A DNA stretch of 64,000 nucleotides from Antilocapra americana (Eukaryota > Chordata > Mammalia > Artiodactyla > Antilocapridae). The notes beneath the pieces are model-generated. The model had not been told where the DNA came from. It saw only the letters and a program-made list of their open reading frames with translations, and made no database searches. The stretch is taken from contig ML661885.1 of assembly GCA_007570785.1 (NCBI GenBank), positions 20,030,883 through 20,094,882 of the forward strand. Reading direction: 5' to 3'. How positions within the stretch are numbered: the first letter of the stretch is position 1; the number at the start of each line of letters is the position of its first letter. Positions 17,851 through 62,833 of this stretch are shown one piece after another. Both the position numbers and the translations under genes were made by a program.

Positions 17851-19475
17851 AAAAGTCTAAGAATAAATATTTGTGGGTTTTTTTAAATTATTTTGGCTAT
17901 AATAGAAAAACAAATGTAAATTTGCAAAATTCTGTTGGCTTCTTCATTTGTAAACAGAATTAAGAAATTTACTTGTTGACCTCTTGAAGGAGTTCAGTCT
18001 TCTCTCCTATTCCTTTCTAGCCTTATTCTGTAAAGGAAGGACTGTTATGTTTAATCACAAGAATATTTAGTTAAATCATACAGCTAAGGTCTTAGTATGA
18101 CTGTCTTTTGCAGATCCCAACTCCTAGAAAAGTAGAGAAGGAAGGAAGTCTAGAATACACATTTTTGTGGGCAAATGGGTAAATATAAAAAACAACTTAC
18201 TTGCTGCCTCTTTCTCTCTTTCTGTCTCTCTCGGTTTCTCTTTGCCTTCATTACATCTCTATCTCTCCCTCTCTCATTTCTCCTACCCACATATACACAT
18301 ATACATAAAAATGCACATATTTCTCTTCCATTGTGCTTTTCTCATGTTTAGCCTATATACCAGTCCAGTCACATTCACCGGCATTCTTTCCTGGGACTTT
18401 GAGCCAAGCTCCTACATTAAGTGTAAAATCTCTCTTGGCCTTGCTTTGTCCTTTGAAAGGAATAGCTAATTAAGAACAGAATCTGATTTTCAGAAACTTC
18501 AGTTCTGTGCAATACCCAGCATGTACTAGATTTTTAAAGTATAACAACTACAGAAATTGCATTTCATTCTGCAGCAGTGATTATTTTTCTTGTCCTTCAT
18601 GATTTTTTAAACAAATAGAAAATGCTGTAAAAGTTATCTGCATAATTTAGTCACATACCAAGCATAGCAGTGTTCTTTTTCTGTCTACATAGTTTTATCT
18701 TTGAGAATATTGTGCCATTTTCAGTTACAAATTACTTTTTATATCTGTATTATACTGCCTTTCCTGGGTATGTGTAAAATTCACATAATTTCAGTTGATG
18801 TTTATTTTGTTCTATCATTGAAATGGATTCATTTTGTGATATTCTGAGAAATATACTTAATTTTTGTGGATCATTTATATGTCTCCAGTATAGTTAGCTA
18901 TTCTGATGCTTAAATAGTTTGTCTCACTTAGTATTTTTTTATCATAAATGTTTAAATTACTTTAATTCTTATTGGGATTGCTTGTTTTCTGTTTTGAATG
19001 GATTTCCCTGCTCAGTATTGCACTCCAGGACAGTTCTAACCTCATTGCTATTATTTCTTCACAACTGCACATAGTTTCCATATTTAACATAAGCCAGTTA
19101 TCTATCATATATATTCATATGTTTATAGTTAATTTTAAATTAGCTACTTCTTGTCTTAAAAGGGATAATTACTTTCAGTACTCAAGTTGTCAAAATAATC
19201 ATTGCATTATATCACAATATTTCTAATATTTCTTAGTTGTATTCCTGCCTTTGACCTTTCTTCCAACCATAAATATACTTCAAACTCCTTAACCAAATCT
19301 TAAATTATAAGAAAGTGTTAATGATAAAATAAATAATTAAAAACAAAGGGAAAAAAAGACATTTTGCACTGACTCTTCTCTTATGGATTTTTTTTTCTGT
19401 TCTTCTAAAGAAAATTAGAATATTCTAACTAGTCATGTTTGCCTTTACTTAGAAAAGCATTTTTTGCACATAATA
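17851..19475. other. Unassigned AT-rich sequence with a pyrimidine tract
   Basis: No gene seen. A pyrimidine-rich (CTCT/TCTC) tract lies at about 18205-18290. The rest is AT-rich with stops in all frames. Confidence 0.4.
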
Positions 19476-19488
19476 GAGGAATAGTATC

Positions 19489-19523
19489 TATTCTTTGCTT
19501 TTTGCTAAGATCAAGAATAGTAT
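19489..19523 (+). pseudogene. U2 snRNA 5' fragment fused to Bov-tA
   Basis: The bases ending at 19523 match U2 small nuclear RNA nt 14-39 at 23 of 26 positions, including 'gctaagatcaag' and the 'agtat' end. U2 nt 1-13 are decayed or partly deleted. The fragment joins directly to the 5' end of a Bov-tA at 19524. U2 is the spliceosomal RNA that pairs with the intron branch site; this fragment cannot serve that role. Confidence 0.7.
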
Positions 19524-19742
19524 GGGGGCTTCCCAGGTAGCACAGTGGTAAAGAATCTACCTACCAATGCAGAAGACACAAGAAATACAAGTTCAGTTCT
19601 TGGGTCAGGAAGATCCCCTGGAGTAGGCAATGGCAACCTTCTCCAGTATTCTTATCTGAAAAATTCCAGGGTCAGAGGGGCCTAGTAGGCTACAGTACAT
19701 GGAATCACAAAGAGCTGGACACAGTTGAGCGACTGAGCACAC
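19524..19742 (+). mobile_element. Bov-tA SINE with U2 leader
   Basis: Sense Bov-tA ('gggggcttcccaggtagcac' to 'gagcgactgagcacacac'). Its 5' end is fused to a U2 snRNA fragment. The whole U2-plus-SINE unit appears bounded by 'agaggaatagtat' (19476-19488) and a near copy at about 19915-19929, with a BovB piece inserted later beside the right copy. Confidence 0.88.
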
Positions 19743-19751
19743 ACACAGAGG

Positions 19752-19912
19752 AGTTGCTATTGCTGTTTAGTCACTCAATCTTGTCCAGCTCTTTGCAACC
19801 CCATGGACTACAGCATACCAGAATTCCCTGGCCTTCATCATCTCCCAGAGTTTGCTCAAACTCACGTCCATTGAGTCAGTGATGCCATTCAACCATCTCA
19901 TCCTCTGTTCGC
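19752..19912 (-). mobile_element. BovB 3' tail, short
   Basis: About 160 bp of the BovB 3' end in reverse ('gctgtttagtcactcaatc' to 'catctcatcctctgtt'). It is flanked by 'cacagagga' on both sides, consistent with its own target duplication next to the U2/Bov-tA unit. Confidence 0.8.
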
Positions 19913-20157
19913 ACAGAGGAATAATATTTGGTAATTCTGAATATAATTTCTGATTTCATTAATAATAACCCAATACCACCACAGTCAAAAAATTGATAGT
20001 CCTCAGAAAGTATAACTATTATATTAAATAATTATAAATAATACAGTAATAATTAACAATAGGCCTTAAAAATATTAAAGAGAAAACTGTTTTATTAGGC
20101 AAACCAGGTTTTGAACTGCATGTACTTTATAACATTTTCAGTAATTTCCCATAAATT

Positions 20158-20193
20158 CTACACTTGATCTTAGCCAAAAGGCCAAGAAGCAAT
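20158..20193 (-). pseudogene. U2 snRNA nt 1-36 retroinsertion
   Basis: These 36 bases, read in reverse, equal U2 snRNA nt 1-36 with only two differences, both C-to-T at CpG sites. A perfect 10-bp duplication 'cccataaatt' lies on each side (20148-20157 and 20194-20203). There is no A-tail and no other inserted sequence. This fits a tailless retropseudogene made from the 5' part of U2. Confidence 0.88.
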
Positions 20194-20203
20194 CCCATAA
20201 ATT

Positions 20204-44061: not shown

Positions 44062-44497
44062 GCATTGCTATGAGTTGAATTGCATCCCCCTAAAATCTAA
44101 CCCATAGTACTCTAGAATGTGAACAGATTTGGAAATAAGGGTCTTTGCAGATGTAATTATTTGAGATAAATAGGATGGACCTTCAATCCAGTATGACTGG
44201 TATCCTCACAAGAAGAAGAAACGCAGAGACAGACACACAGAGACAACTCAAGTGGACAACAGAGGAAGAGACTGGAGTGATACAGCTGCACTGATTTGCT
44301 AACAATGCCAACATCTTTCCATGTGCCTCTTGAAAGTGAAGCGAGAATAGGTTGAGATCGTTTTGGCCCCAAGACCTCTAATCATTCCCTTTACCGGATA
44401 AAACTGCATGGGTTCATCTGCGAGTGTGCCAGCTATCCTGAGGGAAACTTCAGAGAGAACCAGCTACTAGATGGTTCAATCAGTCTTTCACTCCTTT

Positions 44498-51165: not shown

Positions 51166-51269
51166 CAAAAGCATTGAAAGATTCATGAATTTTCATGTCA
51201 TCCTTTTGTAACAGCCACGGTAATCTCTGTATCATTCCAATTTTAGTATGTGTGTGCTAAAGTGAGCAT
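51166..51269 (-). pseudogene. U6 snRNA copy, full length, joined to L1M
   Basis: Read in reverse this is U6 small nuclear RNA from its 5' end (near 51269) through the conserved middle ('actaaaattgg', 'gatacagag') and 'ggatgacatgaaaattcatg' to its T-run (near 51166). It has several substitutions and small deletions. Its 3' end abuts L1M sequence directly. U6 is the catalytic spliceosomal RNA; here decay and absence of the known upstream promoter layout argue for a retropseudogene. Confidence 0.85.
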
Positions 51270-55207: not shown

Positions 55208-55436
55208 ATATGGGGACTTCCCAGGTAGCACTAGGGATAATGAACCGACCTGCCAATGCAGGAGACATAAGTGATGCAGGTTGGATTCCTGGGTCAGAAA
55301 GATTCCCCTGGAGGAGGAAATGGCAAGCTACTCCAGTATTCTTGCCTGAAGAATCCCCATGGACAGAGGAGACTGCCAGGTTACAGTCCATAGTGTTGCA
55401 AAGAGTCGGACATGACTGAAGCAACTTAGCCTGCAT
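55208..55436 (+). mobile_element. Bov-tA SINE
   Basis: Sense full-length copy 'ggggacttcccaggtagcac' to 'catgactgaagcaacttagc'. Confidence 0.93.
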
Positions 55437-62340: not shown

Positions 62341-62349
62341 CTATTCGTC

Positions 62350-62388
62350 ATTGCTTCTCAGTCTTTTGGCTAAGATCAAGCGTGGTAT
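62350..62388 (+). pseudogene. U2 snRNA nt 1-39 fused to Bov-tA
   Basis: Thirty-nine bases matching U2 snRNA nt 1-39 at 34 positions, starting at the exact U2 5' end and stopping at the same U2 base as the copy at 19.5 kb. The next base (62389) is the start of a Bov-tA. Confidence 0.85.
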
Positions 62389-62507
62389 GGCTTTCCTCAT
62401 AGCTCAGTGGGTAAAGAATCTGCCTGCAGTGCAGGAGACCCCTATTGGATTCTTGGGCCAGGAAGATCCACCAGAGAAGGGACAGGTGACCCACTCCAGT
62501 ATTCTTG
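62389..62507 (+). mobile_element. Bov-tA unit 1 of U2 composite
   Basis: Sense 5' two-thirds of a Bov-tA, from 'ggctttcctcatagctcag' to 'ccagtattcttg', where a second Bov-tA begins without a gap. Confidence 0.9.
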
Positions 62508-62700
62508 GGCTTCCCTTGTGGCTCAGCTGGTAAAGAATCTGCCTGCAATGTGGGAGACCTGGATTCAATCCCTGGGTTGGGAAGAACCCCTGGAGAAGGG
62601 AAAGGCCACCCACTCCAGTATTCGGGCCTGGAGAATTCCACGAACCATCTAGTCCATGGGGTTGCAAAGAGTTGGACACGACTGAGCAAATTTCACTTCA
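62508..62700 (+). mobile_element. Bov-tA unit 2 of U2 composite
   Basis: Sense Bov-tA with a visible A-box ('tggctcagctgg') and B-box-like 'gattcaatcc'. A short deletion lies near 62640. It ends 'gactgagcaaatttcactt'. 'ctattcgtca' (62341-62350) and 'ctattcatca' (62701-62710) bound the whole U2-Bov-tA-Bov-tA unit. Confidence 0.92.
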
Positions 62701-62734
62701 CTATTCATCACCTATTCAATGAATTTGAGGAGAC

Positions 62735-62806
62735 TCTGGGAAACCTGGTGTGCTGCAGTCCATGGGGTCGCAAAGAGTTGGACACGATTTAGAGAATGAA
62801 CAACAA
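62735..62806 (+). mobile_element. Bov-tA 3' fragment
   Basis: Short sense piece: 'ctggtgtgctgcagtccatg' to 'aatgaacaacaaa'. Confidence 0.75.
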
Positions 62807-62833
62807 ATGCTAATTTTAGAGTTTTGTAACAAG

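Follow-up and report, generated by a model that had tools for sequence, protein, structure and literature searches.

A U2 snRNA 5' fragment, joined without a gap to a dimeric Bov-tA SINE, was found at 62350-62700 of the window (the whole 64,000-nt stretch of DNA analyzed here). This unit was probably produced as a chimera by a single template-switch event, and a separate low-copy group of U2-headed copies in the same genome most likely originated from one fusion. The observed base of this view consists of the gap-free join, the exact 5' end of U2, the ordinary structure of the dimer, and the finding of no second junction of this type at up to three mismatches. The presence of Bov-tA and BovB indicates that the genome is that of a ruminant.

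Structure of the unit at 62350-62700

The unit is composed of U2 snRNA nt 1-39 (62350-62388; 34/39 identical by alignment), a left Bov-tA of 119 nt without the BovB-like tail, corresponding to the first monomer of an ordinary dimer (62389-62507), and a right Bov-tA with the tail (62508-62700), all on the plus strand. The two Bov-tA parts (62389-62700) shared 78% identity over 116 nt. The U2 match and both gap-free joins (62388/62389 and 62507/62508), which had been proposed in the initial annotation, were confirmed. The Rfam U2 model gave 29.8 bits at 62350-62388, below the gathering score of 46 (E-values of 0.0025 and 0.04 in searches of 4 kb and of the window, respectively). When the window was scanned locally with U2 nt 1-39, this copy scored 29, and the best scores in six simulated 64-kb windows were 12-15. 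The same scan gave 33 at 20193-20158 (minus strand) and 22 at 19486, followed by 14.

The 10-bp direct repeats described in the initial annotation as bounding the unit were present as possible left and right target duplications, CTATTCGTCA (62341-62350, plus strand; the last base is common to U2 nt 1) and CTATTCATCA (62701-62710, plus strand). Although 9/10 positions agreed, the duplication around this gap-free bipartite structure was statistically weak: a permissive null equaled the score in 9% of shuffles (p ~0.09), and the flanks of 2/28 other loci scored as well. The left flank resembles MLT1, and the MLT1 setting given in the initial annotation is a possible one. A BovB-like 3' piece lies to the right (62738-62807, plus strand; by eye it may start near 62706), and was assigned by its resemblance to other BovB-like 3' ends of the window. 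The repeat search at the unit revealed no duplication around the SINE alone, and no repeat of the left flank was seen by eye directly after U2 nt 39 at 62388. Unlike in a tailless U2 retropseudogene, it is the SINE, and not a target duplication, that directly follows the truncated U2.

The two-part Bov-tA is an ordinary dimer; its body, dimer join, and tail were as in other genomic Bov-tA dimers. A genome search with the whole unit, in which 40 of 7150 candidates were scored, gave 41 matches: one was the window, 39 were dimers at other places, and the last was a short additional piece. The 39 places listed (86-90% identity) began at positions 45-60 of the query, at most four bases before the SINE start, and thus none of these 39, from the 40 of 7150 candidates scored, bears a U2 head. 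A loose pattern for the dimer join was found in 105 of 120 listed Bov-tA-frame proteins. In the phylogenetic tree, the SINE at 62350 was placed in the dimer clade (support of 100/98) together with eight rows without U2, several rows of this clade having been fetched by similarity to the 62350 unit.

A junction search, proposed in the initial annotation for cattle, sheep, goat, and deer, was run in the genome of the window (2.44 Gb). A pattern of the two-G U2/dimer junction located only one place, 62350, at up to three mismatches; the 62350 junction itself differs from the pattern at three positions, and more decayed sisters would escape. The three-G form was found only at L015 and L016. The former was rejected as a U2 fusion, with a Bov-tA in its flank and without U2. 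The 62350 copy has the same U2 end (nt 39) as the group described below, lacks the three-base spacer before GGCTTCC that is present in the copy at 19486, and carries a dimer, not the single Bov-tA of the insert-bearing subfamily.

The group of U2-headed Bov-tA copies

The second U2 nt 1-39 copy in the window (19486-19523, plus strand; 31/39 identical with a 1-nt gap) is joined at nt 39 to a single Bov-tA (19524-19747, plus strand) with a GGGGGCTTCC start, a CA-rich tail, and a junction of the group type; it is a member of the group consisting of U2, extra Gs, and a single Bov-tA. Its left target duplication, AGAGGAATAGTAT (19475-19487, plus strand; the last two bases are common to U2), agreed with the right one, AGAGGAATAATAT (19915-19927, plus strand), at 12/13 positions (p 0.002, with two right flanks tried), while the nearer right flank did not match the left duplication (19475-19487). 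A BovB-like 3' piece (19760-19908, minus strand), bounded by CACAGAGGA at 19744-19752 and 19912-19920 (by eye), splits the right target duplication. The facing Bov-tA and BovB-like tails at 19696-19807 form a hairpin with weak matches to the miRNA families MIR533 and mir-1781, neither of which reached its gathering score. The copy at 20158-20193 (minus strand) contains U2 nt 1-36 alone, without a SINE or tail, is flanked by perfect 10-bp duplications (20194-20203 and 20148-20157; 10/10, p 0.004), and is a tailless U2 retropseudogene.

Two of the 16 Bov-tA starts listed in the window had a U2 head. At the other 14, no U2 head beat the best of 500 shuffles, and the score of the closest (42794) was equaled by 23/500 shuffles. 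Three more Bov-tA starts found later in the window (30121, 32924, and 55215) were also without U2; the one at 55215 (plus strand) is preceded by TATGGG and could be a group member cut down to the last bases of U2. A Bov-tA at 44686-44511 (minus strand) is followed on the same strand, after a few dozen bases, by a 28S rRNA fragment (44278-44447; 49.7 bits in Rfam, just under the gathering score of 50).

A 25-nt core (U2 nt 15-39) was found at 209 genome places with up to two mismatches, and the reversed control at none. Among these, 100 were listed: 91 with 0-1 mismatch, of which one was the lone U2 of the window and the other 90 were fetched, and nine of the 118 with two mismatches. U2-Bov-tA fusions at nt 39 accounted for 28 of the 91 loci with 0-1 mismatch (the other 62 fetched were not fusions by reading) and for three of the nine with two mismatches; L016 is a further fusion of this type. 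Most nt-39 fusions bear extra Gs at the join. The automatic set contained 27 copies whose SINE start was intact (both window copies and L016 among them), or 26 without the 62350 copy; L029, L041, L044, and L081 were excluded from signature counts because their SINE start was damaged. Exactly 3 nt separated U2 nt 39 from GGCTTCC in 23/26 group copies. GGG directly preceded GGCTTCC in 17/26, compared with 4/41 controls and 2/14 controls of the same subfamily, and 24/26 belonged to the insert-bearing subfamily, compared with 14/41 controls (Fisher 2.4e-6); the controls had been reduced from 59 to 41 by removing loci L007-L014, fetched with the dimer. In an alignment of 30 copies, each of the five G columns after nt 39 was conserved in 24-27 copies, and the group SINE was ~15% off its consensus.

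These fusions probably represent a low-copy U2-headed SINE group of one founding. Since no diagnostic SINE positions were found between the 26 group copies and the 14 same-subfamily control copies, the argument for one founding comes from the nt-39 end and the extra Gs. We infer by rough arithmetic (from 31 fusions among the 100 loci listed, the total of 209 places, and 12-15% divergence) that roughly 150-300 group copies keep U2 nt 15-39; shorter copies escape the core search. The U2 label was clustered on the tree (17 changes against a shuffled mean of 23.2; 1/500 shuffles as low), which was mostly unresolved and whose rows include dimers fetched with the 62350 unit. At least two changes of this label are required by the starred branches; both may be gains, or one may be a loss. 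The mobility of a U2/Bov-tA chimera, as envisaged in the initial annotation, was borne out insofar as a multi-copy group exists, but its recurring form is U2 (nt 1-39) with extra Gs and a single Bov-tA, and not U2 with a dimer.

Target duplications surrounded U2 and the SINE together at L095 (11/11), L088 (10/10; U2 beginning only at about nt 11-15), and L112 (9/9; U2 from nt 1, by eye, among eight loci viewed). Own flanks beat those of all other loci at 4/29 loci (~1 expected) and were in the best tenth at 7/29, the 62350 copy included (2.9 expected), and the duplication signal across the 29 loci is real but partial. An ungapped estimate of 5' truncation in U2 was set aside because it was biased by decayed CpG sites. 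Mobilization of U2 and the SINE as one unit therefore gained support from the duplications at L095, L088, L112, and 19486, but the 62350 copy's own duplication is weak.

Origin of the fusions

Other breakpoints were also detected. L084 has U2 to about nt 82 followed by Bov-tA, and P0302, a 55-residue metagenome protein, reads U2 from near its start up to about nt 63, where a dimer-type Bov-tA takes over. P0302 was the one U2 head among the 347 proteins listed, out of many more matches, in Bov-tA-frame protein searches; none of these 347 had the nt-39 U2/Bov-tA join, and the other small-RNA translations searched gave scattered short word matches only. L091, with U2 to about nt 66 followed by a BovB 3' end, is a U2/BovB chimera. 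These sequences suggest that U2 was captured repeatedly by BovB-group elements. In the fetched U2 loci that are not nt-39 fusions, the 3' end most often fell at nt 36-41 (32/62), with shorter ends under-sampled by a search core that ends at nt 39. In the viral_contigs collection, there was no U2/SINE junction or canonical Bov-tA start, and plasmids gave no match; neither says anything of ruminants. Searches of genome_contigs gave 0 and then 6 matches, in records with bacterial titles, against a rough chance expectation of 5.

At 62350, target-primed reverse transcription driven by BovB would have copied an ordinary dimeric Bov-tA RNA, the enzyme presumably running off the 5' end of the SINE onto U2 RNA at nt 39; copying would then have continued to U2 nt 1. 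For the group, one fusion most likely gave rise to an RNA with U2 nt 1 at its 5' end, in which the Bov-tA tail recognized by BovB was retained. The two mechanisms offered in the initial annotation thus apply to different elements: a template jump fits the 62350 copy, and a mobile chimeric RNA fits the separate group with a single monomer. The constant spacer and breakpoint favor one fusion inherited by the group copies. The exact nt-39 end shared by the 62350 copy and the group counts against an independent event at 62350, although ends at nt 36-41 also predominate among the other fetched U2 loci; our confidence was slightly lowered because of the three-mismatch detection limit and the weak duplication at this unit.

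Because no diagnostic SINE positions were found, the group may also be no family at all, each nt-39 fusion being an independent, mechanistically fixed switch with a fixed U2-fragment end and Gs added regularly by the enzyme. We regard this as a possible but unfavored explanation: the predominance of nt 36-41 among other U2 3' ends (32/62), the match of the group SINE bodies to same-subfamily controls, the other breakpoints, which point to independent switches, and the failure to find a U2 promoter upstream of the fusions tested all agree with it, whereas the extra GG is missing from 62350, L084, and (as far as a protein tells) P0302, and both the five Gs (24-27/30 copies per column) and the spacing (23/26) were conserved in the group.

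The shared nt-39 end would also be accounted for if 62350 were a derived group member, with U2 from the group RNA, the dimer obtained by a second switch or gene conversion, and three Gs lost. This appears unlikely, since the copy has no extra Gs, its SINE falls in the dimer clade, and no other U2-dimer junction was found at up to three mismatches.

An internal tRNA-type promoter should start transcripts near the SINE start, and a U2-headed RNA therefore needs another start. The external snRNA promoter may have been borrowed by a Bov-tA that inserted into a U2 gene, or became joined to one, downstream of nt 39, and BovB may have mobilized the resulting RNA into a U2-headed family; we consider this rather doubtful. 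No fusion among L016-L106 (150 nt upstream) or the two window copies (longer flanks) had U2 promoter sequence upstream, and the source locus was accordingly not found. In the search with the upstream region, the U2 genes L035 and L039 matched, and beyond them only L097 matched well. At L097 (G000:C2202:12414400-12415150), the U2-gene upstream region is 83% identical over 117 nt, and U2 breaks off at about nt 43, where unrelated sequence and BovB-like DNA in antisense take its place; this locus is a broken U2 gene. L051 was rejected as a source, its 15-nt upstream match being taken as chance.

The fusion could also have formed at the RNA level, a cleaved 5' fragment of U2 being ligated to Bov-tA RNA that was then reverse-transcribed; RNA ligation is one of two mechanisms named for U6/L1 in PMC13174262. 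The discrete U2 3' end and the gap-free join agree with it, but U2 ends internally here, and the U6 of U6/L1 is full-length according to PMC13174262; we judge ligation improbable. Successive insertion of a tailless U2 pseudogene and then a Bov-tA dimer at its 3' edge is highly improbable because, although lone U2 copies ending near nt 39 are common (one lies 42 kb away in the window), there is no left-flank repeat after nt 39 by eye and none around the SINE alone, and exact abutment at nt 39 was seen at many sites.

Relation to known chimeras and significance

SINEU elements carry a U1- or U2-derived head on a multi-copy SINE. Kojima reportedly described in 2015 that U2-derived sequence occurs recurrently at the 5' end of multi-copy SINEs in crocodilians, the only group from which, to our knowledge, snRNA-headed SINEs have been described. 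SINEU is the nearest known kind, and the likeness lies in the U2 head of the group on a multi-copy SINE, while the 62350 junction itself was found once (at up to three mismatches); the elements here differ in their ruminant-type Bov-tA body, BovB-like tail, restriction to U2 nt 1-39, and low copy number. PMC13174262 and PMC5753468 cite Kojima 2015 for SINEU.

Chimeras of U6 and other snRNAs with L1 are established according to PMC4476161 and PMC13174262, and likewise place a sense snRNA 5' of a retroelement in one insertion event. Those described here differ from U6/L1 in that a BovB-group SINE replaces L1, U2 is 3'-truncated in place of a full-length U6, and one type is multi-copy. PMC4476161 also describes fusions of U6 to RTE-like LINEs and to SINEs, from lizard, platypus, and opossum (the last marked as uncertain). 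These likewise involve template switching in which the LINEs, and the SINEs that depend on them, are not of the L1 type; they contain U6, not U2, and section 10 of that paper describes no amplified family. Its table gives repeat-associated U6 as 54/122 in cow and 100/149 in sheep, if the columns follow the group order of the paper. Tailless U2 retropseudogenes are attributed to L1 in PMC5322556; they start at U2 nt 1 and stop at an internal position; the copy at 20193-20158 fits this description, and the 62350 unit differs in having a SINE attached. No U2/Bov-tA family was found in the literature searched, most subscription papers lying outside the search. The window also contains a U6 pseudogene at 51167-51269 (minus strand; 51.8 bits in Rfam, above the gathering score). 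About 60 nt after it, on the same strand, is what looks like an L1 3' piece, and 51167-51269 is a possible U6/L1 chimera.

A U2 end near nt 39 is common to the fusions and to many lone U2 copies, a kind credited to L1. If free of search bias, this end suggests that a real 5' fragment of U2 served as the template, and that priming inside U2 is not the only explanation. If the snRNA promoter origin were true, the group would correspond in mammals to SINEU, with SINE transcription driven by an snRNA promoter in place of the internal tRNA-type one. Together with the other U2/Bov-tA and U2/BovB fusions, the ruminant-type group, whose U2 breakpoint is fixed, provides a countable record of template switching by an RTE-type LINE, and the U2-headed group is a natural test of the transcription of a SINE with a foreign head.
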